Source: Siphonodentalium dalli | Lineage: Eukaryota; Mollusca; Scaphopoda; Gadilida; Siphonodentaliidae | Direction: 5' to 3' | DNA: 64,000 nt | Assembly (NCBI GenBank): GCA_032622095.1 | Contig: CP136068.1 | Location: forward strand, 156,203,151-156,267,150 | Notes under the pieces: generated by a model | The model's input: the letters and a program-made list of their open reading frames with translations, nothing else | Told to the model about the DNA's origin: nothing | Databases searched by the model: none | In this document: positions 520-61,098 of the stretch, in pieces | Layout of the letters: each line of letters opens with the position of its first letter | Position numbering within the stretch: the stretch's first letter is position 1 | Position numbers and translations under genes: made by a program

Positions 520-1548
520 CGACTGGTCGACTCTAGAATCTCAGTTGTTTCAATACTAATATCAATGACCCATTATTCAGTCTACATTCATCAAATTGGA
601 CAATCTAAATAACCTTGTATTATATAAGATAGGATACTATTGAAGAATAAAATATAAAAAATGAAACTTTACCTTCCACCCCATTTTTTCGAAAAAGTTG
701 TATGTCAATCTAGCAATTTATTTTCATTGGCCATAAAAATCAAAAGGAAGTGGTGAAAATGGAGAAAATTCAACAATGAAGGTTTCAAGGACACTGTAGC
801 TCAACTTAGAAAGGGATTAATTTGGCACATGCTACCTATTGCAGTTAACCCTTTACCCAACAGAACGGCCCTGTGCCAATGCATTCTCTTATATATGCGA
901 GTCGACCATAGGTCGCCTCGCATATATAAGAGAATGCATTGGCTTAACACACATTAAAGAAAAAATGGTAAAAAGTGTTAAAAAAAAGTTTTTTTTAGGC
1001 CAATGCATTCTCTTATATATGCGAGGCGACCTATGGTCGACTCGCATATATAAGAGAATGCATTGGCACAGGGCATAACTGTAACCATCACAATGTGCTC
1101 AATGAGCCGGTTCCAATGATACCCATATTTCCATGGTTTTATTGAGACAGACCGAAGATAATTTAGGCTGTTAGGGCGTTTCTGGGCGTTCTGTTGGGTA
1201 AAGGGTTAATGGGAATTAAAAATGAGGAAAGTCAATAAGTTGTAGCATGATTGTATTGATGTCAATGTTTCAGGTTTCTTATAATTTATTAGTAAAATGA
1301 TAATTTCTCATGAGAATCTAGGTAATGTTAGAATCTAATTCTCGAAATGTTTTTAATATGCAAATTAGCGAGATGTCCTGAAAAACTTGTGAGAAAAAAT
1401 CTTGCACAAGATAATTATCATGAGAGAAATTTCTCAGGAAAAAATAACTTGCGAGAAAAGAATCTCACAAGAATTTTGAGATATTTGTTTTTATTTTTAA
1501 ATAAATATGCAGTAACTAGTGAGACAACTACATGTACAGACTACAGTA
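520..1548. repeat. Paralogous non-coding block P, copy 1
   Basis: Colinear with 13505-14256: shared landmarks include AATCTCAG, AATGGAGAAAATTC, GGACACTGTAGCTCAACTT and a TTTCAGGTTTCTTAT stretch. Copy 1 holds a PB1 MITE that copy 2 lacks, and both end in a family T element. Many substitutions and short indels separate them, so the duplication looks older than that of segment A. Confidence 0.75.
845..1209. mobile_element. PB1 piggyBac-like MITE with twin hairpins
   Basis: Flanked by TTAA on both sides. The terminal inverted repeats begin CCCTTTACCCAACAGAACG and end with the complement. Two 67-bp hairpins sit at 876-942 and 1000-1066, inverted relative to each other, with an A/T-rich spacer. 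The paralogous block at 13862-13865 has a single TTAA here and no element. There is no transposase frame, so it must have been moved in trans. The piggyBac assignment rests on the TTAA target and the CCCTTT terminus. Confidence 0.85.
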
Positions 1549-1637
1549 CAGTAATGACCTTAATAATCGACTCCTTAATCACAGCAGAATTATGGGGAAT
1601 TTTTCAGGATTTAGTCGCAAATATGGCTTGTTGCTCT
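1549..1637. mobile_element. Family T foldback MITE, left half
   Basis: Starts CAGTAATG after TA and follows the family T left arm to GGCTTGTTGC, then stops. The right arm is missing, so this is a truncated copy. The paralogous position at 14257-14474 holds a complete element. Confidence 0.8.
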
Positions 1638-1670
1638 CAGTAGTAGGGCAATGTCGCAGCCACTATATGA

Positions 1671-1960
1671 AACAAGAGCACACAGTCGGGCGTGGGCATA
1701 ATACGCCCTTTCTGGAGTAGAGTGGGGCAAGGTTTAGTTCATTTGTTTGAAACTTGATTCAGTTCAATCGATTCAATCTAAAGTTATCATCTTGAAACCC
1801 CATATCAGGTAAAATCAAAGTCGAAAAAAGGGCATAACTCAGTCAATAAATATCATGCAGAGAAAACCCATATTCGAACTTGGTCTGTATTTTGGGTGGT
1901 AAACTAACATACCAAATTTAGTTCAGTTCACTCAATTCAATCTAAAGTTATCATCTGGAA
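1671..1960. repeat. Mollusc-type dispersed repeat M, partial
   Basis: Shares AACAAGAGC, GGGCGTGG, ATACGCCCTTT and the GGGCATAACTCAGTC / CCCATATTCGAACTTGG phrases with 19266-19806 and 54195-54715. The head forms a small hairpin (GGGCGTGG...ACGCCC). The internal sub-repeat is shorter here than in the other copies. Confidence 0.65.
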
Positions 1961-1971
1961 ACCGCAAATGC

Positions 1972-2296
1972 ATATATAAGAGAAAGCATTGGCCTAACAA
2001 TATTTACCTTGATCTTGTAAGCCAGTTCATTCTCTTATATATGCAAGGCTCCCTATCTCGATCCTTTTTCAATTTGCTTGAATTCCGCTCATTCAGTCAA
2101 CTAAACAACCGGAAGTGAAACACAGATTGATATTTGGAGCAAAGACGAATTGAGCAATCTGACAATCATCTAGCGACTTGGAAAATATAAAGGTAAATAC
2201 ATTAACAACCTATGGGAAACTCGCGTATATAAGAGAATGCACTGGCAAAGGGTATTTAATGCTGCACCAGCGTGGATCCCGGCATGAAAGGGTTAA
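1972..2296. mobile_element. PB3 piggyBac-like MITE, left-truncated
   Basis: The right end reads GGCATGAAAGGGTTAA, the PB3 terminus. Internal half-hairpins (TCTTATATATGCAAGG, CGTATATAAGAGAATGC) match the shared cassette but have diverged, and the loops are replaced by a longer insert. The left CCCTTT end is not found. Confidence 0.6.
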
Positions 2297-2370
2297 TATC
2301 ACCCGAACTACTCCACTGAAGCATGACTCTTGAATTACATGTACGAAGAGAAACCATTATTATTTGCTTA

Positions 2371-2583
2371 CAGTACTGCCCTAAGTAATCGACTCCTTAA
2401 CCACTGCAGAATTATGGGTAATTTTTAAGGATTTAGTCGGAAATATGGCTTGTTGCCATTCAGCGGAAAGCTCTCCCAGACAGCTTTCCGATGAATGGCA
2501 AGAAGCCATACTTCCGACTAAATCCTGAAAAATTACCGATAATTCTGCTGTGGTTAAGGAGTTGATTACTTTGAGCATTACTG
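2371..2583. mobile_element. Family T foldback MITE, full length
   Basis: Near-perfect palindrome of about 213 bp running from CAGTACTGCCCTAAG to its inverted copy. The centre is AGCTCTCCCAGACAGCTTTCC. The arms carry the diagnostic CCACAGCAGAATTATGGGTAA, so the RNA or single strand would fold end to end. Its TIRs and TA target suggest Tc1/mariner mobilisation. Confidence 0.85.
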
Positions 2584-2997
2584 CACCTATAAAATAGCCG
2601 AATATTACAAAAATGTTGATCATCGTATGTATATCTTCGAAGTCACAGTGAAATACGATTTTGTTATTTCACTGTAGCTTCATTATTTCACTGTAGCTTT
2701 TCAGAAACTTGAGTCAACAAGTTGTTTTTTACCGAGAATTATTTGTTCAACTGTTTGTACTATTAAAAGTGGAAATGCCACATAATTTAGCAACTGTGAG
2801 CACTAATAAGGCACATATAATAAAAAGAATACATACGGTTTTGTGTTGGTATACACAGCCTGGTATATAATTGTAACATCTCATTTGTGACTGGAAAGAA
2901 ATAGAATTTTCATTCATGGCAAAATTTGATATTTCTTTCCAGACACTCATGAGATATTTCGGTATTCAAACAAAAACTGTAGGCATTCTCTATGTAC

Positions 2998-3274
2998 ATT
3001 AATGCTCTAAGTAATCGACTTCTTAACCACAGCAGAATTATGGGTAACTTTTCAGGATATAGTCAGAAATATGGCTTGTTGTGGTAAAGATTGATTGATT
3101 GGGGTTTATTGTCGCTTTAGCCACTAAGGCCATATCACGACATTGCCAGTTTTAGTGGTGGAGGAAATCCGCACACTTGCGACTAATCGAACAGTGATTT
3201 CAATGGCTGATAAACTCGTCAACCATGTGCGGCAAACCACTTGGTAAAGAAGTCAATTACCTAGAGCATTACTG
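2998..3274. mobile_element. Family T MITE split by a SINE
   Basis: The left arm runs 2998-3081 and the right arm resumes at 3242. Removing the insert and one 9-bp duplicate leaves a short, internally deleted T element. The SINE therefore landed after the T element had lost its centre. Confidence 0.75.
3091..3241 (-). mobile_element. SINE 3' part with 9-bp target duplication
   Basis: Flanked by TGGTAAAGA at 3082-3090 and 3242-3250. On the minus strand it ends AAACCCCAATCAATCAA, a tail I associate with molluscan tRNA-derived SINEs. It is closely related to 30375-30600. No tRNA-like head is visible, so this copy is 5'-truncated. Confidence 0.7.
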
Positions 3275-3379
3275 TATTTAGCACCCAGATCATGCCATGA
3301 AACTACACCCATGAAGATCATATTCCGCACGTTCCTAACATGGTAACTTTTTGATGTTCTGACGGGGGACTTTCTTACT

Positions 3380-3642
3380 TTAACCCTTTCATGACGGGAG
3401 CTGTGCTGGTGCAGCATTAAAGATCATGTGCCAGTGCATTCTCTCATATATGCGAGTCTCCAATCGGGAGCCTCGCATATACAAGAGATTGCACTGGCTT
3501 ACACGGATGAGGTAAATATTGTTAGGCCAATATATTCTTTTATATATCTGAAGTTCCCTATTGGAGACTCTCAAATATAAGAGAATGCATTGGCACAGGG
3601 TATTCACAAAATTTCATGAAGCTCCAGTCATGTAAGGGTTAA
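3380..3642. mobile_element. PB3 piggyBac-like MITE
   Basis: TTAA on both flanks. The ends read CCCTTTCATGACGGGAGC and GCTCCAGTCATGTAAGGG. Inside are three decayed half-hairpins of the shared cassette, with loops (CTCCAATCGGGAGCC) that differ from the CGACCATAGGTCG loop of PB1 and PB2. This is a distinct subfamily with the same stem. Confidence 0.75.
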
Positions 3643-3859: not shown

Positions 3860-4246
3860 TTAACCCTTTACCCAACAGAACGGCCCTGTGACAATGCATT
3901 CTCTTATATATGCGAGTCGACCATAGGTCGCCTCGCATATATAAGAGAATGCATTGGCTTAACACATATTAAAAATGATAAAATTGTCAAAGAATGTAGA
4001 AAAATATGATAAAAATTGTTAAAAAAAAATTTAGGCCAATGCATTCTCATATATATGCGAGGCGACCTATGGTCGACTCGGATATATAAGAGAATGCATT
4101 GGCACAGGGCATAACTGTAACCATCACAATGTGGTCAATGAACCGGTTCCAATGATATCCATATTTGTATGGTGTTAGTGAGACAGACCGAAGATATTTT
4201 AGGCTGTTGAAGCTTTATTTGGGCGTTTTGTTGGGTAAAGGGTTAA
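3860..4246. mobile_element. PB1 piggyBac-like MITE with twin hairpins
   Basis: TTAA at both edges, CCCTTTACCCAACAGAACG terminus on the left and GTTGGGTAAAGGG on the right. Two inverted 67-bp hairpins flank an A/T spacer. The right half contains the GAACCGGTTCCAATGAT block shared by all PB1 copies. No coding capacity. Confidence 0.85.
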
Positions 4247-6034: not shown

Positions 6035-6430
6035 TTAACCCTTTACCCAACAAACCGGCCAAAACCGGCCAAATAAAGCTTCAACAGCCTAAAATATCTT
6101 CGGTCTGTCTAAATAGAACCATACAAATATGGATATCATTGGAACCGGCTCCTTGACCACATTGTGATAGTTAGTTATGCCCTGTGCCAATGCATTCTCT
6201 TATATATGCGAGTCGACCATAGGTCGCCTCGCATATATAAGAGAATGCATTGGCCTAAAAAAAATCTTTTTTCAACACTTTTTACCATTTTTTCTTACAT
6301 TCTTTAACAATTTTATAATATAATATGTTAAGCCAATGCATTCTCTTATATATGCGAGGCGACCTATGGTCGACTCGCATATATAAGAGAATGCATTGGC
6401 ACAGGGCCCTTCTGTTGGGTAAAGGGTTAA
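6035..6430. mobile_element. PB1 piggyBac-like MITE, reverse orientation
   Basis: TTAA flanks. The left terminus is CCCTTTACCCAACAAACCGG and the right is TTCTGTTGGGTAAAGGG. Twin hairpins are present and the CCGGTTCCAATGAT block lies on the left, so the element is inverted relative to 845-1209. The left end contains a short duplicated GGCCAAAACC step. Confidence 0.85.
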
Positions 6431-9239: not shown

Positions 9240-11252
9240 TTAAATGTAGCTACGATCCAGATAACATTGATGCATTTTGATGAATGAGACGACTCTGTCT
9301 GGCACCAAGCCGACAAACAGCACCCGACTATCTGCGACCGCTCGAGCAGATAAACATTGCAAGCTGAGTAACCCCAAATCTTCATCTATTTCATCTGGAA
9401 GCAAATCCACAAAAGTCTTGCCGTCTTTGTTTCTGATGTCACGATGAGGTTGTGTATCAAGAAGAGTGTCTATAACCAGTTTGTATTCCCAAAAAGGACT
9501 AACATAATCACTAATATTAGAATAATACCTAATACGATGAGCAGCATCATATGTTTCATATCCTTGGGAAGCAGCCGTCATGAGGCACGAATTACCATTG
9601 TAATCTCTATAATTAACATCAAATCCACATTCAAGAAGGAATGATGTTAGGCGGTTATTAGGAATGTATAACTCATTTAAGCTTTCCAGGATATGGCTAA
9701 GATGCATATAGCTGATTTTTTTATCCAAAGCAAAATGTAGAATACTCCGTCCATCGTTATCGACTGGATTCATTCTAGCAACCTCACTGTAGAACACTTT
9801 TAATTCTTCAGTTTCTTCACTCGATAAAGAGAACAGCTGGCTCTCATCAATTTCAAACGCACAGTCAATATGCAGAAAAACATTAATAAACAGGACGGCA
9901 AAGGAAAATATCTGATGGCGCTGTGACTTAAGATGTTCAAAAAGATTGTTACCAGGCATCGTTGCATTTACTAAAGTTCTCAGAAAACTCATCAGATACT
10001 GAAACGAGCCGTGAAGGTTATTGACCAATAATTTATCAAGGAGCCGGCTGGTCTTGTCTTCTAAAAATTGCACAGTTTTGCTTGCCAGATGTGGATAATT
10101 GTAAGACAGAGAGAGAGCATGATCAAGCAATTTCTCCTCATGTTGTGCCTCAGTCCTATTATGAACTTGATATCCGAGGGGCCTACCCAAGGTGCTAACA
10201 TACAATAGATTATCCTCACCGAGAACTCGTTCATAAATGAGAAGAGACTGTGCAAACAAAGGTTTCTGTTTGGATAGAACTTCCCCCAATTCTTCCATGG
10301 TTTGTGGTTCTCGCTCATAAGAGAACACTTCGTATTTTTTATCAGGCAGTATTTTGTGTGTTGGCTGATCCGGATTTCGAAATCTTATTTTCATTGCTCG
10401 TTCCCACAACTTTACAGTGAATTGGTTTGGTTCTACCGCGTCCCCCTCAATCTGTGATTGTGCACCTAGAAGTTCTAACGCATCGGCAATGTCTCCATCG
10501 GTTTGTTTTGTATGCAGTATGAGATACTCAACCATGATTTCATTCCCAATAAAGGCAGCGTACTTGAGAACATTATTCTGAAATCCATCTTGATGATACT
10601 CAGCTCCGTGTGACAATAGAATTTCAACACATTCTATTGTTTGTTCTTCTATATATTGTTTTTCTAGATCTATGGCGTAATGAAGTGCTGTAAAGCCTAT
10701 AGCATCCCGAACATTCACATCAGCACCGTTTTCTAATAAAAACTGTATTATTTTCTTATGTTTTGAAAATAACATCAGGCAGCTTATTTTCTTAACATCC
10801 CCAGAACATCGGCTCATAGCATTAACATCAGCACCTCTGTCTATGAGAACTTTCATAATAATCAGTGCAGTATCCAAAGTTGCAGGCCGACGAAGATCAT
10901 CATCAAACGAGTCACACACTGACATAAGAGGAGATATGAATTCACCACGTGAATCTGTAATTGCATTGACATCTACACCTCCGTCCATGATAATTTTCAT
11001 AATAACCAGGCGTGTTTGCAAAGACAGGTCTGGCGTTGATATTGGGTCACATGCTATTATGAAAGGAGACTTCATAGAAGTCATATTCCTTTTACCACAC
11101 TGACGTTTGTCCACATTAAGATCTACACCAGCATCTATCAAGAGTTTCACTTCATTCACATTGCCTTCTTTAATTGCCTGAAAAAGAAGGCGTTTTTTTT
11201 CTCTTGGATCTACAAATTTTCTGATAAAGCTGTCATTATGGTCTGCATCCAT
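9240..11252 (-). CDS. fem1: FEM-1 family ankyrin protein (CUL2 E3 ligase substrate receptor)
   Basis: A 670-residue intronless frame with ATG at 11250-11252 (context CAAAACATGG). An in-frame TAG ten codons upstream (11280-11282) supports this start. FEM-1 proteins bind Elongin B/C and CUL2 and present substrates carrying C-terminal degrons for ubiquitination in the cytosol or nucleus. Seen here: N-terminal ankyrin repeats at about 21-48, 60-97, 104-146, 155-182, 186-219 and 226-250; then the FEM-1 junction ALELLGA (258-264); a region like the FEM1 TPR segment with LLIYERVLGEDN (337-348) and HALSLS (378-383); C-terminal ankyrins GRSILHFALD (501-510), LLECGFDVN (539-547) and DIRNKDGKT (605-613); a VHL/BC-box-like LLSLQCLSARAV (628-639); and a tail VPDRVVSF like that of FEM1B. 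The length fits FEM1 (about 620-670). The N-terminal ankyrins are divergent and contain inserts, so the degron specificity is probably not that of FEM1A/B/C. Orthology within the family is unresolved. A second gene copy existed nearby (4662-4871). Confidence 0.88.
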   Translation of the reverse strand: MDADHNDSFIRKFVDPREKKRLLFQAIKEGNVNEVKLLIDAGVDLNVDKRQCGKRNMTSMKSPFIIACDPISTPDLSLQTRLVIMKIIMDGGVDVNAITDSRGEFISPLMSVCDSFDDDLRRPATLDTALIIMKVLIDRGADVNAMSRCSGDVKKISCLMLFSKHKKIIQFLLENGADVNVRDAIGFTALHYAIDLEKQYIEEQTIECVEILLSHGAEYHQDGFQNNVLKYAAFIGNEIMVEYLILHTKQTDGDIADALELLGAQSQIEGDAVEPNQFTVKLWERAMKIRFRNPDQPTHKILPDKKYEVFSYEREPQTMEELGEVLSKQKPLFAQSLLIYERVLGEDNLLYVSTLGRPLGYQVHNRTEAQHEEKLLDHALSLSYNYPHLASKTVQFLEDKTSRLLDKLLVNNLHGSFQYLMSFLRTLVNATMPGNNLFEHLKSQRHQIFSFAVLFINVFLHIDCAFEIDESQLFSLSSEETEELKVFYSEVARMNPVDNDGRSILHFALDKKISYMHLSHILESLNELYIPNNRLTSFLLECGFDVNYRDYNGNSCLMTAASQGYETYDAAHRIRYYSNISDYVSPFWEYKLVIDTLLDTQPHRDIRNKDGKTFVDLLPDEIDEDLGLLSLQCLSARAVADSRVLFVGLVPDRVVSFIKMHQCYLDRSYI

Positions 11253-12332
11253 GTTTTGAGTTGGAACAGCTCCAGTAATCTATAGCAACTCACTTGTATG
11301 ACACCAATGATCCAATCACAGGTACTTCCACACAGATCACAGATGCCTTGTATGAATGTAGCACCTCTTCGTCAGTTTAATGATACTGGAAAATAAAAAC
11401 AAAATGTAAGGCCAATATAAAAATAAAATGATTGGTTTGCATCTCCTCCCGACCATATTTTTGATGTAAACATTATTTTTTCCATATAATTAAAAAAAAA
11501 AACAATGCATTGTACAAAATATGAAGTGTGAATATTGGTTGTATGGAGGGGATCCAACATCAAGCATAACGCTTATGGGGGTCGTTTTCTATTTTTAGTC
11601 CCCTCCTCAAATTTGTTTATATTTGGATATCCTTTATGAAAACTTTTTTATCATGCCTAAGCCTTCAAATTACATTTCAAATAGTGTTGTAATGATTAGT
11701 CGACTAATCAATGTCTACAGCTCCCAATGTGAATTCTGTATTTTGCCAAACATTGTACATACTTCCCAGAGTTAATAAGAGTTAAATGACTATAATGTAG
11801 ATACATGGCAGTGCCGCATGTTTATATAGCACTTTCCGCAGATGTGACAGTTTTAAAAATGCAACATATTCAGTATGCTCAAAATGTAGCACATAAGTCG
11901 TGCACCGATCGTGAGATTACTGGGTCATGAGGTGTTCCAAGTTCTACGACGGTTAATTTGACATTCAGGACTCACAGTTTCAACTTTTTTTTATCAATAC
12001 CAGTGGTTGAAGAACGAAAAAAACAAAAACATTAAAATAATATGCTTAAATCTGAAAAAAAACCCTCAAAATGTAGACATTCTAACTATTTATTATATGA
12101 CTATCGTTTTTCATTCCCCAATACCACTATAGTAAAGTGATCATTTCCCGACCATCGGATCAGCTACAGTTTGATCTGATGTCATACCACCCTTCTCTAT
12201 CTCGCATACTGCGCATGACCGGAAAAAGCAGGACAGTTCTTTCTTTATTTTTGATACTAGCTAGCGAGCGTGTGCAATTGGTTTCATTTCATAATGAGAG
12301 AAATTGTGCTTTTCAAATAAAAAGCATGTCAT
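11253..12332. other. FEM-1 upstream flank, otherwise no gene
   Basis: On the minus strand TTTTTATTTTCCAG ends at 11386, a good polypyrimidine-AG acceptor, so 11253-11385 may be the 5' UTR part of the coding exon, with a non-coding first exon further up. This is inference from the motif only. The remaining ~950 bp show nothing I can name. Confidence 0.35.
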
Positions 12333-14903: not shown

Positions 14904-15300
14904 TTAACCCTTTACCCAAACAGAACGGCCCTGTGCCAATGCATTCTCTTATATATGCGAGTCGACCATAGGTCACCTCGCATATATAAGAGAATGCATT
15001 GGCTTAACACATTAAAAATTTAAAATTGTTAAAGAATGTAAGAAAAAATGGTAAAAAAAAGATTTTTTTAGGCCAATGCATTCTCTTATACAGTGTATAT
15101 GCGAGGCGACCTATGGTCAACTCGCATATATAAGAGAATGCATTGGCACAGGGCATAACTGTAACCATCACAATGTGGTCAATGAGCCGGTTCCAATGAT
15201 ATCCATATTTGTATGGTTTTATTGAGACAGACACAAGATAATTTAGGCTGTTGCAGCTTTATTTGGCCGTTTTTGGCCGGTTTGTTAGGTAAAGGGTTAA
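14904..15300. mobile_element. PB1 piggyBac-like MITE with twin hairpins
   Basis: TTAA at both ends. The second hairpin carries a 5-bp CAGTG insertion in its stem (about 15089-15095), and GTTAGGTAAAGGG replaces the usual GTTGGG at the right terminus. Otherwise it matches PB1. Confidence 0.85.
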
Positions 15301-16515: not shown

Positions 16516-16972
16516 GCGACCCGCCATATCAAATCCAGTCGTAAGTCGGGATTTGTTTACCCTGTGCCAATGCATTCTCTTATATATGCGAGTCGACCAT
16601 AGGTCGCCTCACATATATAAGAGAATGCATTGGCCTAACAATTTTTTATCATTTTTTTAAAAATAAATGTTTCTTAAAATTTTTAGGACATAAAATAAAA
16701 AACATCCATTACCCTGCAGGGAGCCCCACACATATATAGAAGCATATAGAAGAGTGTCGTCTGCACATGTTTGTCTGGGGCTCTGTATGGGTGAAATTAT
16801 AAAATTGTTAAAGAATACAAGAAAAAATTATTAAAATTGTAAAAAATTGTTAGGCCAATGCATTCTCTTATATATGCGAGGCGACCTATGGTCGACTCGC
16901 ATATATAAGAGAATGCATTGGCACAGGGTAAAAAAATCCCGACTTACGACTGGATTTGATATGGCGGGTCAC
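16516..16972. mobile_element. Twin-hairpin element with a fourth terminus
   Basis: The same two 67-bp hairpins (about 16564-16632 and 16855-16922) are framed not by CCCTTT ends but by CGACCCGCCATATCAAATCC / its inverse, followed inward by AGTCGTAAGTCGGGATTT. The flanks read ATTTG on both sides, a possible but weak target duplication. Between the hairpins lies an extra ~110 bp (16683-16795) with its own CAGGGAGCCCCACA / TGTCTGGGGCTCTG inverted ends. Confidence 0.7.
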
Positions 16973-17347: not shown

Positions 17348-17889
17348 TTAACCCTTTCAGTGCCAAGTCCGATTTTTGTATCAACCCATATACCCTATGC
17401 CAATGCATTCTCTTATATATGCGAGGCGACCTATGGTCGACTCGCATATATAAGAGAATGCATTGGCATAGGGTATATGGGTTGATACAAAAATCGCATT
17501 GGCCTAACAAATTTTCATTTGTTATTATTTTTTACAATTTTTTACAATTTTAATAATTTTTTCTTATATTCTACTCTCTTTCAGTGACAGACTTATTTTG
17601 TAAGTTTAGTACCAGGGAATCTTACGTTTTTCATGGGCATAAAAATTATTACTATGAATACTTGGTGATAGTTTTGAGTTATAACATGCCCCTAAGGTTT
17701 TAACCAGTTTGTTTTTAAATTCGCCATAGCATGCTTAAGCATACCCAAAAAAAATTCAACCCCAAAAAAAAAATCTACAAAAAAAAATCATAATATTTTT
17801 TTATTTTTTTAGGGCCGATTTTACAGACCGTAAATTAGGGCCGATGAGATCGGGCCCTGCTCATCGGCCCCTAGCACTAAAAGGGTTAA
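17348..17889. mobile_element. PB2 piggyBac-like MITE
   Basis: TTAA flanks. Left terminus CCCTTTCAGTGCCAAGTCCG, right terminus CTAGCACTAAAAGGG. One hairpin (about 17399-17465) sits inside a larger inverted repeat of ATATGGGTTGATACAAAAATC. The right half holds a TTTTCATGGGCAT / AGCATGCTTAAGCAT stretch common to PB2. Confidence 0.8.
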
Positions 17890-18239: not shown

Positions 18240-18926
18240 TTAGCCCTTTCAGTGCCAAGTCCAATTTTTGTATCAACCCATATTTCCTTGATCATTTTTC
18301 AAATTTATTGATTATAATAATGTGATACATTGATGGAAAGAGATCTGAGAGTTCTTTTCATCACCAGCCCTGTGAATTAAGGAAAATTTGCCTAAGAAAT
18401 ATTTTTGCCTAGGTGAAAGAAATCGGCCTAGGCAAAAATAGATTTTACCTAGGCAATTTTGCATCTCAAATCAATATGATTCAATAATAACCTGAAATGC
18501 TTAGTTATTTTGGAGAACATTTCCAGGCCACTACTCTGACATCATATATGACATATATATACATTCCACAAATCATCTCCAAAACTAGTGCCCTTTAATA
18601 TGGGTAGCTAGTTAATGGCCCAGTGCCATGGAAACAATTTTAGGACAATATATGTAAAGAGTGATTTAAGGAAGTCATTTTGGCTATAGAGGTTCTATTT
18701 CTGATAGACACAAATCAATTTTAGTATTAACCCAATGAACTTGTTTTACCTAGGCAATATAATTGCCTAGGCAAACTGATTTTGCCTCTGCTTTTACCTA
18801 GGCATTGCCTAGGATAATTCCCAGGGCTGCATCACTGTATCACATTATTATAATCAATAAATTTGAAATATGATCAAGGAAATATGGGGTCGATACAAAA
18901 ATCGGACTTGGCTCTGAAAGGGTTAA
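18240..18926. mobile_element. Long-armed PB2-type element
   Basis: Ends TTAGCCCTTTCAGTGCCAAG and CTCTGAAAGGGTTAA. The inverted arms extend ~85 bp (to AATAATGTGATACA), longer than in other PB2 copies, and the hairpin cassette is absent. A second element (18365-18829) is nested in its loop. Confidence 0.75.
18365..18829. mobile_element. Nested element, CAGCCCTG ends, 6-bp CATCAC duplication
   Basis: Terminal CAGCCCTGTGAATTA and TAATTCCCAGGGCTG, flanked by CATCAC at 18359-18364 and 18830-18835. Removing it restores a hairpin in the host PB2-type element, which supports the boundaries. The interior has repeated TTGCCTAGGCAA words. Fragments of the same family lie at 59840-60070 and 60428-60482. 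Confidence 0.65.
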
Positions 18927-20300: not shown

Positions 20301-20748
20301 TTAACCCTTTGATTAACCCTTTGTATCAACCCATATACCCTGTGCCAATGCATTCTCTTATATAGGTCGCCTCGCATATATAAGAGAATGCATTGGCCTA
20401 ACAATTTTTCATCATTTATTATTTTTTACAATTTTTACAGACTTATTTTGTAGGTTTAGTGCCAGGGAATCTTACGTTTTTCATGGGCATCAAAATTATT
20501 ACTATGAATACTTGGTGATAGTTTTGAGTTATAACATGCCCCTAAGGTTTTATCCAGTTTGTTTTTAAATTCGCTATAGCATGCTTAAGCATGACCAAAA
20601 AAAATTCAACCAAAAAAAAAAAAAAATCTAAAAAAAAAAATAAATAATAATTTGTTTTTAATTTTTTTTAGGGCCGATTTTACAGACCGTAAATTAGGGC
20701 CTATGAGATCGGCCCCTGCTCATCGGCCCCTGGCACTAAAAGGGTTAA
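20301..20748. mobile_element. PB2 piggyBac-like MITE with duplicated left tip
   Basis: TTAACCCTTTG occurs twice in a row (20301 and 20313), replacing the CAGTGCCAAG part of the left terminus. The single hairpin lost the CGAGTCGACC side of its loop (20342-20395). Right end TGGCACTAAAAGGGTTAA. Confidence 0.75.
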
Positions 20749-21640: not shown

Positions 21641-22030
21641 TTAACCCTTTACCCAACAAACCGGCCAAATAAAGCTTCAACAGCCTAAAATATCTTCGGT
21701 CTGTCTCAATAGAACCATACAAATATGGATATCATTGGAACCGGCTCCTTGACCACATTGTGATAGTTACAGTTATGCCCTGTGCCAATGCATTCTCTTA
21801 TATATGCGAGTCGACCATAGGTCGCCTCGCATATATAAGAGAATGCATTGGCCTAAAAAAAAACTTTTTTTAACACTTTTTACAATTTTTTCTTACATTC
21901 TTTAACAATTTTATAATTTTTAATGTGTTAAGCCAATGCATTCTCTTATATATGCGAGGCGACCTATGGTCGACTCGCATATACAAGAGAATGCATTGGC
22001 ACAGGGCCGTTCTGTTGGGTAAAGGGTTAA
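21641..22030. mobile_element. PB1 MITE with empty paralogous site
   Basis: TTAA-CCCTTTACCC ... GGGTAAAGGG-TTAA with twin hairpins (21785-21851 and 21933-21999). The A2 copy reads GACATTTTAAAGCAACTG (33765-33782) with a single TTAA, exactly the pre-insertion sequence. This copy arrived after the A duplication or was cleanly excised from A2. Confidence 0.92.
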
Positions 22031-27191: not shown

Positions 27192-27227
27192 ATTGTAAGT
27201 TACTTGGGTTATTATCTTATTTATTTT

Positions 27228-27925: not shown

Positions 27926-28496
27926 TTACAATGTAATTCACTACGGTAGTGAATTCATCATTTGTTCAGAGCCGAATAACTGCTACAACAATTACCACGT
28001 CCCATTATCTACATTACCACAGCATTGATGATTGTCGTGGCTAATTTCAAGGGCTGAATGGTCTATTATTCATTTGAAGCGGTGACTGCTGGGTTCACGC
28101 TGGCTGGAAAATTCTTTTGGCCAATTTTATAGTTATTTTCATTTTTTGGCCATTTTTATAGAAACAAAAACAAAAAATATAAAGAAAACATACACAGATT
28201 TCAAGCTGGACAAAAGTGATAATGGAAATATGCACAGGGCGGAATCACAAAAACTAAATTGGTCTAAAAAAAAGTAATTATTATTATTATTAATTATTAT
28301 TAAACTATTAACTAAATATTTCCTAAAGGAACTACTCATCAATGAGTATTTAGAATATATATGGTTAATGATCCTCCAGTGCATTTTGAAAGAAATGTTG
28401 GTAAACAATTTACTGTAACAGCAGCCCATGTTCATGTTTTCCATAACAAGCAATAACCCTAAAATACAGACATTGATTATGGTCAGAATCGGGGAG
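27926..28496. other. No gene seen
   Basis: A short palindrome GAATTCACTACGGTAGTGAATTC lies at about 27931-27953 (TGTAATTCACTACGG...). A 104-codon minus frame at 28139-28453 is AT-rich and has no recognisable motif. Confidence 0.45.
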
Positions 28497-28722
28497 CTGA
28501 ATATGGGAGCTGCGCTGGTGGAACATTAAAGATCATGTGACACTGCATTCTCTTATATACAAGAGACTCCGATAGGGAAACTCGCATATATAAGAGAATG
28601 CAGTGGCTAACACGGTCAAGGTACATATTGTTAGACCAGTGTATTCTGTTATGCGAGTCTCTCAACATATATAAGAGAATACATGGGCACGGGGTTTTCA
28701 CAAAATTTCATGGAAGAGTTAA
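28497..28722. mobile_element. PB3 piggyBac-like MITE, decayed
   Basis: Right end TCATGGAAGAGTTAA. The interior has two short hairpins with PB3-type loops (GACTCCGATAGGGAAACTCG). The left CCCTTT tip has degenerated (GAATATGGGAGCTGCGCTGG remains). Confidence 0.6.
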
Positions 28723-29979
28723 CTTATTTGCAGCAGCATTGGCAGCACTGTTAGAAGACAATCTTTTGGTCTGAAATGAGTGTTACTGATTTATTCTGGG
28801 CTTTTCCAGTCACATAGATAGTCAACTGTTCCGATCGATACATGATATCGATACATGGCCAGTCCTTCGAATTTGGAAAACGTAGGTGCGCGATATATCG
28901 CTCGGAGCTTTTGGGATTTGCGCGCGCCTTTTTTGAGGGAGCACAATTCAAATTAACATCGATGAAATGATTACTGAATAAAGACAAACACAAGTATAAT
29001 GATACACACGTATAATTCCAAGTGTGGCAACAGAAACAGAAATAAAAACATGTTTATATTATACAATAGTCCACATGATAACATCAACAATCCCGGTGAA
29101 TCTGATCACGGTAATTAGTCGACTTCCGCCTCTGAGAGCGCATGCTCATCAGACTCGATTAAAGCTTCAAACTCGGAAGTGGAATCCGAATCGCTACCGG
29201 AATCAGATTGCCAGGGAGCAAACTACTTTTAAAATTTTGATTAGTATATAGCTAGTCAATTATTGTAATTGAATAGCATCCATTCCGAATTGAATAGCTA
29301 TTTTTATGGGCCTAATATATCGGTGAATTAAAAGTAATAATGTCACACCTGTGAATTACATCCCAGTGAGCACACGCGACAGCTTGTCGGGGACTAATTT
29401 GTCACATATTATCTTTAGAATTAGCGCTTTTAAGATTGCACACTTTTGCCCTTTTAGGCAGTGTCACCATCACTATCCGACATGAATGATGATACAGTAT
29501 AAACCCTAATCTAATATTCTAATGAATCGGCGAATCCCGCATGCCGAAACATCAAACGAGGCCGCCAATGAATTGACACGCTTTTTGCGGGAACTCGCAC
29601 GTGCAGCAGTTGTGATGAGGTGTCGCCCCAATCATTGAGTGCGAAAGACGCCGCTTTGATCTTTGTTACCAGGTTCGTAATCAACGTCATCCCTGCTGAG
29701 AAAGATACATGGTGAATAGTCTTGTCGGCGTTTAACCATTGGTGTGTTGTTTGTTAAAATCTCGTTCACTGGTTGCAATTTCCGAGGCGCGCATTTGAAA
29801 TTTTCGGCGTACGCATTTAATAACTCGCTGGTTTTTAGATCCGCGCGCGCCAAGGCGTGCAAGCGCAATTGCGCGCCTCAAAATCGAAGGACTGCATGGC
29901 CATTAAATTTCAATAAGAATTAGTTCATGCTAAGGCCATAAAATTAATATCTGTGTACTCAGGCAATTGGATCTCAATT
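28723..29979. other. No firm gene; local CpG-richer stretch
   Basis: 28860-28935 and 29560-29885 are richer in CG (GCGCGCGCC, CGCGCGCGCC) than the surroundings. A 78-codon minus frame at 29632-29868 (TSELLNAYAENFKCAPRKLQ) is unassigned. Nothing else can be named. Confidence 0.4.
29120..29236 (+). CDS. Acidic Ser-rich frame, possible 3' exon relic
   Basis: After a TAG the frame reads STSASESACSSDSIKASNSE then VESESLPESDCQG and stops at TAA (about 29234-29236). It resembles in composition the frame at 57674-57880, and is followed by R-like words (GGGAGCAAACTACTTTTAAA, compare 24386). It has no start codon. A relic of an unidentified protein tail is possible, chance also. Confidence 0.2.
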
Positions 29980-40933: not shown

Positions 40934-41349
40934 TAGTGTGTCTGAAATTTGCAGAAAGAGGTCCCCAGAGGGTGAATTTAATGACGCTATTGCACGCAGC
41001 GGGCTATTTCACAAAATGCACCCCTGGGGACCTCATTCTGCTTAGGTCTCAACTGCTATGGGGGACCTAGGATCAGAATGATGTTCCCCGAGTTGAAGTT
41101 GGTGATGTTCACCCGATCATTCGATTATAAATGAATTTTATCTTCTACAAATTAGGGGATATAAGAAACTGAACAGAAGGGAAAAAGTAAATAAAAACAA
41201 TGTTAATTTGAGACTATAGATACTTCCCAGAAGATGAAGCATAATGCCTAAGAAGAATGAGGTTCCTAGAGGGTGAATTTGGTGATGCTAGCCTGCTGTG
41301 CAGGATAGCGTAACTAAATTTACCCTCTGGGGACCTCCGACACACTATA
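40934..41349. repeat. Family G foldback element (D1)
   Basis: Bounded by TATAGTGTGTC and GACACACTATA. Contains AGGTCCCCAGAGGGTGAATT twice with inverted partners CCCTCTGGGGACCTC. Copy in D2 at 45794-46206. Confidence 0.7.
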
Positions 41350-41990: not shown

Positions 41991-42047
41991 CCGATCCATT
42001 TTCTAGAACTATAAGTGAGCCAGTTTTATGAAAATTATCGCGGAAAT

Positions 42048-45000
42048 GGGACCCATATCATCAGATTCCAATAACAAAATTTCTTGAAATGCCACTTCCA
42101 GCCATTATCAGAATTGATTAATTGCCAACAAATAATGCTAACCACTGTCAACTATAGTATAACATTTCCCAAAATGTATAATATATCAACATTTTGTTTA
42201 TCGCAATTTGGTATCGAGAGTACGTTGGTCGGCATTTGCAAAATATTTGCCAGGCAGCCAACTGCCAAATATTCTATGTGGTAAAAAAAAAAAAGCTCAG
42301 ATTTGAAATCTAGAAATCTGATACCTCTGCAGGGCTTTGAGGGGTGGGTTCCTTGACTCAAATCTAATATTTTTTACCACCCGAAGCTGAAGAAATAATA
42401 ATTTATGGGCATTAAATTGGATTGTATATCTTTAAATTACTTAATTACTCAATGAAATGAAGAGATTACTCACCGATTTTTGCAAGAATCAGGTGATGGA
42501 AGTAGTTGATAAACAATGGATGTGTAGATTCGGAATCCTCTTGGTCATCAATCGTTTTTTTGTTTCTGTCACGAGAGTCTATTGTCTTTCTGTGTTCTTT
42601 GTCATTTGCATCGGTTCTTGTCTGTGATCTTTGACCTGTGTTCTTTAAGAAATTTTAAGAGCTTATTTGCTTTTCTGTCATCTGTGGTTCATCTGTGTTA
42701 TTTTAGCAATTTATAAGTGTTTGTTTACTCTTCTGGCTGTGATCTTCATCTGTCGCTGCTAGTTTCTGTGTCTTGTCCTCAATATAGATCTAACAGACAG
42801 TGAATTTAAGCTACCTGGAGAAGAGGAGCTGTATGTGACCTAATTGATGCACATGTACCATGTCCACCTGTAATTGAAAGTGAAGATATGAAAGTTGTGA
42901 AATGATGTAGAGAGATAATGGTGAAGTGAGTGCCAGGTTCCATACATAGCAGTATGGATTATCTGTGGCAGTGTCTCGTCATACACACATTAGGATCCAA
43001 ATTGTTTTTATGAAATCTTAGTCAAACATACCCTTGGTTTTTATAAGAACATCAAGTTGAATGCTTTAATTTGTACAAATTACATCACAACATTTAACAG
43101 AAAACGTCACTTAGGTGGCCACTTTCCACCTGCATCGTACAACATATGAGGTGATATGGGTGATGTGGCCAGATGGTGTATGGAAACACATAGCCTGGCA
43201 TTAGTGTTACTGGACAGATTAACTCACCAGCAGGTCCAAGCATTCAGGAACTCACCAGCAGATCCAAGCATTCAGGAACTCACCAGCAGATCCAAGCATT
43301 CAGGAACTCACCAGCAGATCCAAGCATTCAGGAACTCACCAGCAGATCCAAGCATTCAGGGGTCAGGAAGTGAGTTATCTGTGTAGAGGAGCTGTATGTG
43401 GCTTACATGCTATATTACACATCTGAGTCGGGAGGGTCACCAGGCAAACGTGAGCTGTAAAGTGAATGAGAACTGTAGGGGTTGTAACCCACTGCGTATC
43501 ACATAATAACACCATGCATCATATAATAACACCAAGCATCATATAACACCAGGTATTATTTGACAGGCTATTTTTTATTATATAAATAACCCTCTCCACA
43601 TATCATTTTCCAAAGGAATATGTTCCAGTTTTTAGGCAATTTTCATTCCGGGCTACCCATCATATCTCTACATATTTATATAGCAAAATGGTCGTAGAAA
43701 ATTTTAGTGTCGATAGCAATAACATTTGTCAATAATTTTCATGGTTATGGTACGATTTTAGAACTCATATTTCTGAAGAAAAAAACACTTGAAATTTTGA
43801 AGAAAAAAAAAAAATTCATTCTATGACAACCATGATCATAATATGCGACCAAACTCAGCATAGGTTATTCCACTAATTTCTTCTGAAAACGGTGGGCTTG
43901 CTGTAACAGCATTTTATAAATTTGTCGTCGCATTCAGAATTATGTCAAAAGTCGCCTTCAAAAACACAAAAACCGATGCCAATCCACAATAGAAGGTGTG
44001 TCCCACGGGTCAATGAATACGAAAATAGCAAGAAATCTCACGGACTTGGGAGGGCAGGTCAAATTATATTTTCGAAATCCGAAATAACGGTCCCAAATTA
44101 CTATTTCTTTGGCTTCGGGGATAAAAAATATTTGATTCGAGTCGAGGAACCCACCACCCATCATAGCTCAGACTGATCAGCTATCGATTTAAAAAAAAAA
44201 ATATTTCTCGAAATGGGTAATTATTTGCAGCCCAGAAAAGATCCATCAAATTGACGGTCTCTGACAAAATTGCGGATGAAGATGGAGGACTAAAATCAAG
44301 TGTTAATATGGTCATATTTTGTGATATTCGAGTGATAATATGGCCATATTTCGTTAAACAACATGATAATAAATAACACCTTTTGGGAAATTTTATACCA
44401 TAGTTGACAGAGGTTAGTATTATTTTGTTGTTATTAATTGATCCTGATAACAAAAGCTAATTGATCCTGATAACAAAAGCGTATTTTGAAGAAATGTTGT
44501 TGTTGTAATAACTTGATGATATGGGGACCGGACCGTCTGATCGGATTGAGTACCTTTAACACTTTCACGATATTTTCTTTGTCCAAAAATTTAAGCATAT
44601 GTATTAAGCTTGAAAAGAACCATATAAAGATCCACTGTCCAATTTAGTTACAATAGCAGCGACAAATCATCAAAGCCACTTTAGAGATCAAAATTAACAT
44701 TTTTCATGGCAGTTTGAACGCCGAGCAAGTGTCATAGTTTGAATGGCGAGCAAGTGTCATAGTTTGAATGGCGAGCGAGTGTGGTTGACAAATGCCATAT
44801 ATGGTGAAGCATGGTTCAAACTGGAATTGCCCAGAATGTGTCATCACTAATGTTTCAAACAAACATCTATTTTTAAGTGCACACGACATGCTGTTATCAT
44901 TTGTCAGTTAAAATCGGGACTAATTTTCAAGTTTGATCTGAGTTGAGGGATTGTTTAAAGGTACTCAATCCGATCAGATGGTCCCCCATATCATCAAGAT

Positions 45001-48907: not shown

Positions 48908-49437
48908 CAGGGAAGGATCCAGGGCTCTTTTGATACCTGTTACAGGTTTGGGCGCCCAAACTCTGGTGGCCTAAATGTCCCCAAATTGCAAGTGGATAGT
49001 TTTATTAAAGCTGAATTTTCTATATTTTTGAAGGAAATCTTCTATTATAATTCAACATGCAATGCAAATCATCAATATACAGTTGATATAGAGCCTTTAT
49101 TTGCTTAATCAAGTGTCCAGTGAGAAATATTTTAACCCTTTCATGACTGGGGCTTCTTGAAATTTTGCAAAAATCCTGTGCCGATGCATTCTCTTATATA
49201 AATGAGAGTCTCCCATCTAAGGAGCCTCGCATATATAAGATAATACATTGGCCTTTATCTTGACCTTGTAAGCCAGTGCATTTTCTTATGCGGGATCTTT
49301 AATGCTGCACCTAAAGGGAGTGGGGCGACCCCCTCCCGTACCTACCCCCATCTCGGGCCTACGGCCCTCGGGATATGCCTTTGGCATATCATGGTCCCAA
49401 AACACGTGTCCCCAAAAAATCCCTGGATCCATCCCTG
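48908..49437. mobile_element. Nested hAT-like element, 530 bp
   Basis: Ends CAGGGAAGGATCCAGGG and CCCTGGATCCATCCCTG with perfect GGTACACA at 48900-48907 and 49438-49445. It lies inside the larger hAT and itself contains a PB3 fragment. GGGCCTACGGCCC and GATATGCCTTTGGCATATC short palindromes sit near the right end. Confidence 0.82.
49132..49308. mobile_element. PB3 fragment inside nested hAT
   Basis: TTAACCCTTTCATGACTGGG and a hairpin with PB3-type loop (GAGTCTCCCATCTAAGGAGCC). The right terminus is lost after TTTAATGCTGCACC. Confidence 0.65.
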
Positions 49438-50344: not shown

Positions 50345-50600
50345 GCAATTTTTTATCATTTTTTTACTTATATTCTTTTATAAATTTTTATCATTATTTC
50401 TTACTGTACATTCTTTAAAAAAAAATCTGGATTTTTTATAATTTTTTTTAACAATTATAGAAAAAGAAACAAAATTTGTTAGGCCAATGGATTCTCCTGT
50501 ATATGCAAGGCGACCTATGGTCAACTCTCATATATAAGATAATGCATTAGCACAGAGTTTTTGGCAAAAATTCAGGAGGCTCCACTCATGGAAGGGTTAA
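50345..50600. mobile_element. PB3 right-end fragment
   Basis: A/T spacer, then a decayed 67-bp hairpin (about 50484-50551) and the end GGCTCCACTCATGGAAGGGTTAA (tip CATGGAAGGGTTAA). The hAT element (48780-50336) directly abuts on the left. Confidence 0.65.
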
Positions 50601-50662: not shown

Positions 50663-51089
50663 TGAACTCTTTCAGTGCCAGGGGCCAATCTCATCGGCCC
50701 TAATTAATGGTCTGTAGAGTGCGAGGAGCCGATAAAATGTAATTATTATTTTTTGGGTTTAATTTTTTTTTTGTGTGTATGCTTAAGCATGCTATAGTGA
50801 ATTTAAAAACAAACTGGATAAAACCTTAGGGGCATGTTATAACTCAAAACTATCACCAAGTATTGATAGTAATAATTTTGATGCCCATGAAAAACGTAAG
50901 ATTCCCTAGCACTAAACCTACAAAATAAGTCTGGCACTGAAAGAGTTAAAGAATATAAAGAAAAAATTATTAAAATTGTAAAAATTGTAAAAAATAATAA
51001 TGATGAAATTTGTTTAGGCCAATGCAAGAATGCGTTGGCACAGGGTATATGGGTTGATACAAAATCGGACATGGCACTGAAAGGGTTAA
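50663..51089. mobile_element. PB2 piggyBac-like MITE
   Basis: Left tip decayed (TGAACTCTTTCAGTGCCAGG), right ATGGCACTGAAAGGGTTAA. The hairpin has collapsed to CCAATGCAAGAATGCGTTGG (51018-51037): most of the stem was deleted, leaving the base. Confidence 0.7.
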
Positions 51090-53499: not shown

Positions 53500-53765
53500 T
53501 TAACCCTTTTTATGACGTGAGCCACATGGCGCAACAATAAAGAACTTGTGCCAATGCATTTTCTTATATATGCAAGTCATATAGGTCGCCTCGCATTTAC
53601 AAGAAAATGCATTGGCCTAACCATGTTTTATAATTTTTTATAAATTTTTCTTACATTCATTAACAGCTGTCGACTTAATTGTTAATATTTGAAGAGCATT
53701 TTGCAGCACTGGGTACAGCTGACTCACATATATGAGATGATTTGTCACAGTCATGAAAGGATCAA
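53500..53765. mobile_element. PB3 piggyBac-like MITE
   Basis: TTAACCCTTTTTATGACGTG to GTCATGAAAGGATCAA; the right TTAA has mutated. One cassette hairpin (about 53552-53615) with loop TCATATAGGTCGCC. Confidence 0.65.
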
Positions 53766-56336: not shown

Positions 56337-56668
56337 TTAACCCTTTCAGTGCCAGGTCCGATTTTTGCATCAACCCATATGCCCTGTGCCAATGAATTCT
56401 TTTATATATGTGAGTCGACCATAGGTCGTTTCGCATATATAAGAGAATGCATTGGCCTAAACAATTTTTCATTATTTTTTACATTTTTTAAATTCGCTAT
56501 AGCATGCTTAAGCATACCCAAAAAAATTCAACCCAAAAAAAAAAAAACATCTGGAAAAAAAAAAAAACATTTAAAAAAAAAATTTTTAGGTCCGATTTTA
56601 TCAGCCCTGGCACTCTACAGACCGTAAATTAGGGCCGATGAGATCTGCCCTGGCACTTAAAGAGTCAA
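56337..56668. mobile_element. PB2 MITE inserted in an R unit
   Basis: GTGAAT-TTAA-CCCTTTCAGTGCC ... CACTTAAAGAG-TCAA-GCTAT. Uninterrupted R units read GTGAATTTAAGCTATCTG (51171-51188), so the TTAA of the R unit is the target. One hairpin (about 56388-56454) and one terminus mutated (TTAA to TCAA). Confidence 0.85.
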
Positions 56669-57033: not shown

Positions 57034-57453
57034 TTAACCCTTTCAGTGCCAGGGGCCGATCTCATCGGCCCTAATTTATGGTCTGTAAAACCGTCCCTAA
57101 AAAAAATAAAAATGCTTAAGCATGCTATAGCGAATTTAAAAACAAACTGGTTTAAACCTTAGGGGCATGTTATAACTCAAAACTATTACCAAGTATTCAT
57201 AGTAATAATTTTTATGCCCATGAACAACATAAGATTCCCTGGCAGTCACTATACCTACAAAATAAGTCTGTTAAAGAATATAATAAAAAATTACTAAAAT
57301 TGTAAAAAATAACAAATGATGAAAAATTGTTAGGCCAATGCATTCTCTTATATATGAGAGGCGACCTATGGTCGACTCGCATATATAAGAGAATGCATTG
57401 GCACAGGGTATATGGGTTGATACAAAAATCGGACCTGGCACTGAAAGGGTTAA
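57034..57453. mobile_element. PB2 piggyBac-like MITE, reverse orientation
   Basis: TTAA flanks, left CCCTTTCAGTGCCAGGGGCC, right CCTGGCACTGAAAGGG. The hairpin is near the right end (about 57333-57403). It interrupts the R unit before ATTGAAAGTGAAGATATG. Confidence 0.82.
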
Positions 57454-58860: not shown

Positions 58861-58904
58861 AATTTGGCAGCAGTCATGATGAAGAGATACCAAGTTTAAC
58901 AGAA

Positions 58905-59815: not shown

Positions 59816-59839
59816 AATGCAGCTGTGGTTCAAACTGCA

Positions 59840-60070
59840 GCACTGGGAGTTAGCCAAGGCAATATAGGCATTGCCTAGGTAAAAGCAGAGGTAAAATCAG
59901 TTTGCCTAAGCAATAATATTGCGTACATAAAATCAGCCTTCATAATTGGCTACTAGTATGGCAATCAGCATCGCCGAAGCAATTTGCTGAAGCAAACTGG
60001 GCCACGGCATACTGTTGCCGATTGCCGAAGCCAAATAATCTGAATAAGAGGGCTGTAAAATAGTTTCATT
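59840..60070. mobile_element. Fragment of CAGCCCTG-type element
   Basis: CAGCACTGGGAGTTAGCC, GCATTGCCTAGGTAAAAGC and AAATCAGTTTGCC match the inverse of the 18365-18829 element. The interior contains a GCCGAAGC(A) cluster. The end near GAGGGCTGTAAAATAG is decayed. Confidence 0.5.
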
Positions 60071-60083
60071 GGGTTTTAAAATA

Positions 60084-60287
60084 GAGTAATGCCCAAAGTA
60101 AATGACCACTTAACCACAGCAGAATTATGGGTAATTTTTCAGAATTTAGTCGGAAATATGGTTTGTTGCCATTCATCGGAAAGCTTTCCGATGAATGGCA
60201 ACAAGCCATATTTCCGACTAAATCTTGAAAGATTACCCATATTTCTGCTTGCTGTGGTTAAGTGGTCATTTACTTTGGGCATTATTG
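60084..60287. mobile_element. Family T foldback MITE, diverged ends
   Basis: AGTAATGCCCAAAGTAAATG to ATTTACTTTGGGCATTATTG. Both arms carry the same unusual AAAGTAAATGACCACTTAAC, so the arms evolved together (or were gene-converted). Centre GGAAAGCTTTCC. Confidence 0.8.
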
Positions 60288-60351
60288 TATCAATCAGAAA
60301 TACCTCTTTTGCCAAACTGACCTCCATTCCCTCTTTACAATTATTGTCCTA

Positions 60352-60418
60352 CAGTAATGCCCTAAATAATCGTCTCCTTAACCACATCAGAGTTATGGGT
60401 CATTTTTCAAGATTTAGT
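60352..60418. mobile_element. Family T left-arm fragment
   Basis: CAGTAATGCCCTAAATAATC to TTTCAAGATTTAGTAAAAC, then joined to a fragment of the CAGCCCTG-type element (60428-60482). Confidence 0.7.
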
Positions 60419-60513
60419 AAAACCCGGCTTTGCCTAGGCCAATTTGTTCTGACCAGGCATAGTCTCCTCAATTCCCAGAGCTGAAACTTTGACAGTGTAG
60501 TGAACAGGTAACT

Positions 60514-60733
60514 ACAGTAATGCTCTAACTAAGTAACAGACTTCTTAACCACAGCTGAATTATAGGTAACTTTTCAGGATTTAGTTGGAAATATATGGCT
60601 TGTTGCCATTCATCGGAAAGCTCACAAGGATAGTTTTCAAATGAATGGCAACAAGCCATATTTCCTACTAAATCCTGAAAAGTTACCCATAATTCTGATG
60701 TGGTTAAAGAGTCGATTATTTAGGGCATTACTG
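60514..60733. mobile_element. Family T foldback MITE, full length
   Basis: TA-flanked palindrome with centre GCTCACAAGGATAGTTTTC. Followed by CAACACATCCTGATGAATAAC, also found after the T fragment at 61209. Confidence 0.83.
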
Positions 60734-60816
60734 TACTCAACACATCCTGATGAATAACTATTATGCGAGTCGACCATAGGCCTGACATTGTTTTATAATT
60801 TTTATTCTAACATTCT

Positions 60817-61098
60817 TTAACCCTTTCAGTGCCAGGGGCCGATCGGATCAGACCTAATTTACGGTCTGTAAAATCGGCCCTAAAAAAATAAAAAAATTTT
60901 TTTTTTTTTTAGATTTTTAAAAAATTATTAAAATTGTAAAAAATTGTAAAAAATAATAACAAATGATGAAAAATTGTTAGGCCAATGCATTCTCATATAT
61001 GCGAGGCGACCTATGGTCGACTCATATATATAAGAGAATGCATTGGCACAGGGTATATGGGTTGATAACAAAATTGGACCTGGCACTCAAAGGGTTAA
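60817..61098. mobile_element. PB2 piggyBac-like MITE
   Basis: TTAACCCTTTCAGTGCCAGG to CTGGCACTCAAAGGGTTAA. One cassette hairpin (about 60982-61045), lacking a CT step (GCATTCTCATATATGCG). It separates two copies of the T-plus-flank unit. Confidence 0.8.

Follow-up and report, generated by a model that had tools for sequence, protein, structure and literature searches.

The cores of miniature inverted-repeat transposable elements (MITEs) are usually thought to be tied to one transposase superfamily. In the closest described system, the CMITEs of Acropora corals, piggyBac-type MITEs with TTAA ends and CCCT-like tips form families that differ in their terminal inverted repeats (TIRs) and have in common an internal region better conserved than those repeats, and a composite element, CMITE-IN, is derived from them (PMC2872659). 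The origin of this better-conserved core was given as unknown (Wang et al., 2010, PMC2872659), and it had been left unexplained. The present report concerns a comparable arrangement in the scaphopod Siphonodentalium dalli, whose genome comprises 2.23 Gb in 9 contigs: in a stretch of 64,000 nucleotides (contig CP136068.1; G000:C8:156203151-156267150; hereafter "the window"), an identical 69-bp palindrome lies within elements following two different target rules.

Other known systems resemble parts of it. piggyBac elements duplicate TTAA (PMC2872659), and in piggyBac and piggyBat a short tip-like motif is followed near the tip by a palindrome, at which the transposase core and two CRD domains bind; those palindromes are of 19 bp in piggyBac and imperfect, of ~14 bp, in piggyBat, in contrast to the near-perfect one of 69 bp here (PMC11707139). 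Sola2 elements, as outlined in PMC3627910, have target duplications of the form AWWT (ATAT, AAAT, ATTT); the family designated E4 below shares such 4-bp AT-rich target site duplications (TSDs). Bivalve pearl-type MITEs are also modular, and one of them, DTC84, has a conserved palindrome near a repeat junction, but their cores are satellite-like tandem arrays, and TTAA tips go unreported in the portion of that paper at hand (PMC5139131).

A preliminary description of the window knew of no family with such a modular arrangement, which is too strong in view of the corals. The additions over the CMITEs are the long palindrome, the crossing of target-duplication classes, the high number of copies, and a means of telling selection on source copies apart from later decay. 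CMITEs are ~100 bp long with a 75-bp internal region (the cores being compared here by description only); the words hairpin, palindrome, stem, and secondary structure are absent from the main text describing them; all their ends are TTAA as described, with none in another superfamily; and an estimated ~1,600 copies in A. millepora compare with ~244,000 matches to the hairpin arm in either orientation of the present genome (Wang et al., 2010, PMC2872659). Core sharing across two superfamilies appears to be new, with the CMITEs a precedent for sharing between TIR families; a literature search by titles and abstract openings, with most subscription papers outside it, recognised no MITE module common to piggyBac and another superfamily.

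A palindromic module beneath unrelated termini

The cassette as first described was a 67-mer. Its 26-nt arms and their inverse are at the places implied, and it folds as claimed, with 26 + 5 pairs, one T/C mismatch, and a 3-nt loop; a closing G-C pair extends this to a 69-bp consensus with 32 pairs (27 pairs, the mismatch, 5 pairs, and the loop ATA). As DNA the 67-mer folds at -33.2 kcal/mol, and none of 200 shuffles was equally stable; as RNA the hairpin is very stable (-54.3 kcal/mol). Among 13 sequences folded, the diverged PB3 hairpins at 3527 and 50484 were equalled by 4 and 8 of 200 shuffles, respectively. Twenty-three window hairpins were oriented and aligned, excluding disrupted sites at 1967-2245, 28662-28688, and ~51020-51045.

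TTAA/CCCTTT termini of three kinds occur in the window, on elements designated PB1, PB2, and PB3. All have TTAACCCTTT tips, with single changes in some copies, and so carry the terminal motif CC[C/T]T. PB1, with five window copies, extends between two TTAA sites and has a short and a long subterminal side, with CCCTGTG and a hairpin coming next on both; PB2 has a single hairpin at one end; and the hairpins of PB3 are more diverged. Among 24 PB1 copies, 21 have TTAA at both ends; in the other three (L039, L063, L065), one end or both ends differ from it by a base. Their TTAA duplications and tips suggest that PB1 to PB3 are piggyBac-type MITEs. The reverse mixing is also found: the element at 18240-18926 has PB2 termini without the module.

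The element at 16516-16972 represents E4, which appears, from its target duplications, to be a family of another kind, of Sola2 type. Each side consists of a TIR (GTGACCCGCC...) followed by CCCTGTG and the hairpin. The TIRs, of 44 bp, are unrelated to the CCCTTT ends, as the preliminary description had stated, and the element is flanked by the duplication ATTT. Exact 4-bp TSDs were found around 22 of 29 full E4 copies (ATAT 14, ATTT 5, AAAT 2, ATGT 1), 21 of the 22 being AWWT; seven copies had none. The earlier claim of one cassette beneath unrelated termini is therefore borne out, with two target-duplication classes, TTAA and AWWT. The mutual inversion of twin hairpins was likewise described correctly; it arises because the two arms of a long inverted repeat hold one hairpin apiece.

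The E4 TIR pattern has 27,077 matches genome-wide (13,447 forward, 13,630 reverse; 0 for the control), half of which gives ~13,500 copies. All 22 elements at 20 loci picked by TIR, regardless of hairpin, have hairpin arms, so that E4 regularly contains the module; among the loci, L076/L077 and L085/L086 are each a pair of near-duplicates. The L076/L077 copies resemble each other in their internal deletions and have flanks in mirror image, as if a single locus had been duplicated in inverted orientation. In L078 (~45-125), an E4 copy is inserted at ATAT in an apparent PB3 hairpin arm; the hairpin itself provides AWWT-like targets. Inward-facing TIR pairs 4 kb apart were considered as candidate autonomous elements, but the two fetched each proved to be two separate short E4s; no autonomous E4 was found, Sola2 proteins not having been searched for.

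The consensus hairpin is identical at 69 of 69 positions in the groups labelled PB1A (23 hairpins), PB1B (18), and PB2 (7) and in the TIR-chosen E4 copies. Its arm has 243,953 forward and 242,793 reverse matches genome-wide at up to three mismatches, as against 1 and 0 for a reversed control pattern. The hairpins are unevenly spread: 20 stretches of 10 kb sampled at fixed places contained six, in three of the stretches, vs. ~22 expected from an even spread over the same 200 kb (a second E4 copy, L020, was met in this sampling). With lengths of ~190-690 bp, no coding capacity, TIRs, and high copy number by the E4 TIR and hairpin arm counts, these elements are MITEs. No exact match was found in viral or prokaryote contig collections.

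Forty hairpin loci, each with one exact arm and drawn from the first 6.05 Mb of C1, were read by hand; some look like duplicates. Twelve are E4, 15 PB1, 7 PB2, and 3 PB3, and the remaining three have an E4 core without a PB or E4 terminus at an end. Two of these (L035, 395-749; L059, 403-745) consist of an E4 core with T-runs in anonymous DNA, without the 35-bp outer TIR on either side; the third (L032, 470-715) is truncated on both sides, also in anonymous DNA. None of the three cores has a clear target duplication around it. In G000:C1:727804-909655 (L069-L073), exact arms are regularly spaced, at ~14.5 kb and then at alternating ~6.2 and 5.0 kb, in tandem arrays whose fetched units bear PB1 or PB2 copies.

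Because a consensus hairpin identical in PB1, PB2, and E4 carries no tree signal, the limits of the shared unit were sought as borders of homology. The outer 40 nt of the E4, PB1, and PB2 consensus sequences align no better than shuffles (z at most 1.0). Over the inner 75 nt, four of the nine between-type comparisons reveal a relationship (E4R-PB1B, z 6.6; E4L-PB2, 3.8; PB1B-PB2, 3.5; E4R-PB2, 3.3). The palindrome begins 30-51 bp from the tip, directly after CCCTGT, at the six ends measured. A 15-nt loop is retained in 90 of 99 paired hairpins. Read from the terminus, 89 of these loops have the normal orientation, the sole exception being 17399-17467. The hairpin therefore does not hop alone: the preliminary suggestion that it moves by itself, as a free cassette, is not supported in view of the loop orientation together with the shared flanks, and the two results define the shared unit as CCCTGTG, the hairpin, and an AT-rich inner spacer.

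Source copies, inserted copies, and mutation of the palindrome

The stem had been described as far better conserved than the spacers, with selection on the fold as one possible reason. In the 24 PB1 copies, changes of all kinds are indeed rarer in the hairpin (29/2660) than elsewhere (183/5053, p=6e-12), but singletons are equally frequent (23/2660 vs. 42/5053, p=0.9); these counts omit one perfect arm per selected copy as well as homopolymer runs, neither of which is omitted from the count of shared sites. Variants shared by at least two copies occupy 3 of 138 hairpin sites, all in the inner stem, and 24 of 185 outer sites, two of them flanking bases (shared vs. private, p=0.011). With private changes about equal and shared ones nearly absent from the hairpin, source copies must have hardly varied there, while inserted copies decay freely. 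The conservation claim thus stands for shared variants of PB1 and fails for the private mutations of single copies; better conservation of the hairpin in every copy is ruled out by the equal singleton rates, a five-copy test in the window having earlier given singleton p values of 0.02 to 0.04. Such a split between private and shared mutations separates source selection from later decay, and could be applied to other MITEs, CMITEs included.

Selection is evident for PB1 only. Ten E4 copies show no difference in singletons or in all changes (p=0.3 and 0.68), and there is no sign that the E4 transposase needs the module.

As to the fold, the constancy of the hairpin among PB1 source copies agrees with selection, but selection on the fold in inserted copies is not supported. 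The check for compensatory changes proposed at the outset gave none in the E4 stem (0 compensated vs. 47 one-sided changes in 26 copies) and none in young PB copies, the groups labelled PB1A, PB1B, and PB2 (0 vs. 24). At three pairs, PB3-labelled hairpins show 16 compensated cells vs. 47 one-sided, a result that a small number of events inherited in common may account for; in the grouping behind these PB counts, many E4 hairpins are double-labelled and the PB3 groups are rough. Among 17 distinct window hairpins, cells with changes on both sides number 11 vs. 3.6 in shuffled data (0/500), a signal that stems mainly from PB3 and is weak because the pairs concerned number only 5 vs. 3.0 (62/500).

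The palindrome itself has been rearranged in places. The PB2 copy at 17348 has an inverted loop, and its right side carries an inverted repeat of 31 nt from the left flank before the sequence returns to normal; this hairpin is a template-switch scar, as judged from its sequence. Template switching between inverted repeats inverts spacers and homogenises arms, as described in PMC8604942 and PMC8794818, and the 17348 copy is similar in both respects; it differs from those accounts in that its palindrome is also extended 31 nt into a transposon terminus, in a single case. Extended palindromes were found in 1 of the 99 paired hairpins, and altered loop lengths in 9. The scar, the changed loops, and the near-complete loss of one PB2 hairpin (remnant ~51020-51045) together indicate that the palindrome is unstable, and this instability could offer a route by which new termini are joined beside it. 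Two hairpins (window 15073-15147; L045 391-465) have short insertions at the same TA, reading TATACACTGTATA on one strand, and TATACACGTATA; these resemble Tc1/mariner excision footprints.

Possible origins of the shared module

The arrangement is explained somewhat more probably than otherwise as the subterminal palindrome of a piggyBac-type MITE complex, kept within a module while ends were exchanged around it; it suggests that the ends of small non-coding elements can be swapped while a conserved core between them is retained. The unit inherited, in fixed orientation, would be CCCTGTG with the 69-bp palindrome and the AT-rich inner spacer, and on more than one occasion new termini would have been joined to it, immediately outside CCCTGTG. 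One of these joins would have moved the module, presumably from a piggyBac-type MITE donor, into a MITE with AWWT duplications, putatively of Sola2 type, whose founder amplified to the present copy number; one capture followed by amplification would be the simplest history of E4. Selection for transposition would keep the module in piggyBac source elements, with the CCCT motif and palindrome most likely serving, by analogy with piggyBac, as an internal transposase-binding unit. Each inserted copy would then decay without constraint, and template switching between the arms would now and then rewrite a hairpin and its flank. Thousands of copies would make it possible to measure how ends are exchanged, what subterminal palindromes do, and how palindromes affect mutation.

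Several observations weigh against end exchange around a conserved module. Five of the nine between-type pairs have no clear inner homology (E4L-PB1B and PB1A-PB2, both z 1.6; E4L-PB1A, 0.9; E4R-PB1A, 0.3; PB1A-PB1B, -0.3), and the PB1 long-side hairpin lies much farther from the tip than 30-51 bp. The E4 cores of L032, L035, and L059, each with an end that has neither a PB nor an E4 terminus, are not explained by simple descent. In 17 TIR-chosen E4 copies, the change rate of the hairpin (35/2199) is close to that of the TIR (25/1449, p=0.79), with no signal of constraint, and that of the inner spacer (89/2566) exceeds the hairpin's (p=5e-5; singletons p=0.0017). The spacer excess may come from misaligned AT-rich indels or be real, in which case neutrality after insertion would be weakened. 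Finally, gene conversion among source copies could mimic constraint at the source level.

It is possible, if doubtful, that a single piggyBac MITE whose subtermini change fast simply diverged into the subfamilies PB1 to PB3, only E4 requiring a special event. Plain descent would agree with the tips and module common to all three; it does not readily fit outer 40 nt without detectable homology in PB1A, PB1B, and PB2 beside fully identical hairpins, nor PB2 termini that exist without the module. Tentative, and on balance unlikely, is a portable end-module that would let a non-autonomous element switch transposase superfamily, with new termini joined to a pre-adapted core by hairpin-driven breaks or template switches at the palindrome and the core carried first by a piggyBac and then by a Sola2-type transposase, so as to be now among the most numerous sequences of the genome.

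That the module is or was itself a mobile element, inserted into different host elements to give E4 and the PB families as nested composites, which CMITE-IN has been proposed to be, seems improbable. The coral precedent (PMC2872659), the sharp outer limit at CCCTGTG, and the two E4 cores with T-runs and no E4 TIR on either side (L035, L059) would suit it, but inspection by eye shows no target duplication flanking the module in PB1, L035, or L059; within the fetched stretches, only 3 of the 40 hairpin-chosen loci have a core end without a PB or E4 terminus; and the module would need to have inserted repeatedly at one and the same position next to every terminus. Of similarly low probability is the reading that arms and copies homogenise one another's hairpins through template switching or conversion, with conservation a functionless mutational by-product. 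The extended, loop-inverted palindrome at 17348 fits template switching as described in PMC8604942 and PMC8794818, and the compensated pairs of PB3 are in keeping with it; yet one-sided changes stand uncorrected in E4 and in PB1A, PB1B, and PB2, the PB1 singleton rate equals that of neighbouring DNA, and only one extended palindrome was seen. An RNA role for host or element, as a pre-microRNA-like hairpin or small-RNA source, is hardly credible: the RNA fold is very stable and MITE-derived microRNA genes reportedly exist, but no Rfam family matches at its gathering threshold (sub-threshold matches are mostly microRNA-precursor models far under their cut-offs), a 3-nt loop with a near-perfect stem is unlike ordinary pre-microRNAs, and PB1 copies decay as fast as adjacent DNA does.

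Elements and other features of the window

Table 1. Coordinates of PB and E4 elements in the window, with their hairpins.
Feature	Position	Strand	Details
PB1 element	845..1209	+	TTAA...TTAA; hairpins 875-943, 999-1067
PB3 element	1936..2296	-	insert interrupts hairpin loop; left limit approximate
PB3 element	3380..3642	+	hairpins 3430-3498, 3526-3594 (inner stem changed, partly compensated)
PB1 element	3860..4246	+	hairpins 3890-3958, 4035-4103
PB1 element	6035..6430	-	hairpins 6186-6254, 6332-6400
PB1 element	14904..15300	+	hairpins 14935-15003, ~15072-15147 (second with 7-nt insertion)
E4 element	16516..16972	+	44-bp TIR, 4-bp TSD ATTT; hairpins 16566-16634, 16854-16922
PB2 element	17348..17889	+	hairpin 17399-17467, template-switch scar (from sequence)
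PB2-type termini at both ends, without hairpin module	18240..18926	+	diverges from PB2 after CAACCCATAT
PB2 element	20301..20748	+	hairpin 20344-20397, 15-nt loop deletion
PB1 element	21641..22030	-	hairpins 21784-21852, 21932-22000
PB3 element	28490..28724	+	hairpin 28539-28607 and degenerate second; left limit approximate
PB3 element	49132..49320	+	hairpin 49180-49252; right limit approximate
PB3 element	50380..50600	-	hairpin 50483-50551; left limit approximate
PB2 element	50665..51089	-	hairpin nearly all deleted, remnant ~51020-51045; left limit approximate
PB3 element	53500..53720	+	hairpin 53550-53616; right limit approximate
PB2 element	56337..56660	+	hairpin 56388-56456; right limit approximate
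PB2 element	57034..57453	-	hairpin 57334-57402
PB2 element	60817..61098	-	hairpin 60981-61047

No tRNA was found in the window by ARAGORN. Another palindromic repeat family (GGAAATATGGCTTGTTGCCATTCATCGGAAAG...), also abundant and seemingly without relation to the hairpin, occurs in at least 15 places between 2369 and 61690. An ORF (open reading frame) of 679 amino acids with ankyrin repeats occupies 9240-11279 on the reverse strand; the best named relatives listed are coral (Porites) proteins, at ~28% identity. At 26194-27192 there is a 29-bp minisatellite of ~35 units with 97% matches, and at 31084-43624 a block present in three copies ~5.4-5.9 kb apart, with 28-bp minisatellites of 5, 11, and 5 units.

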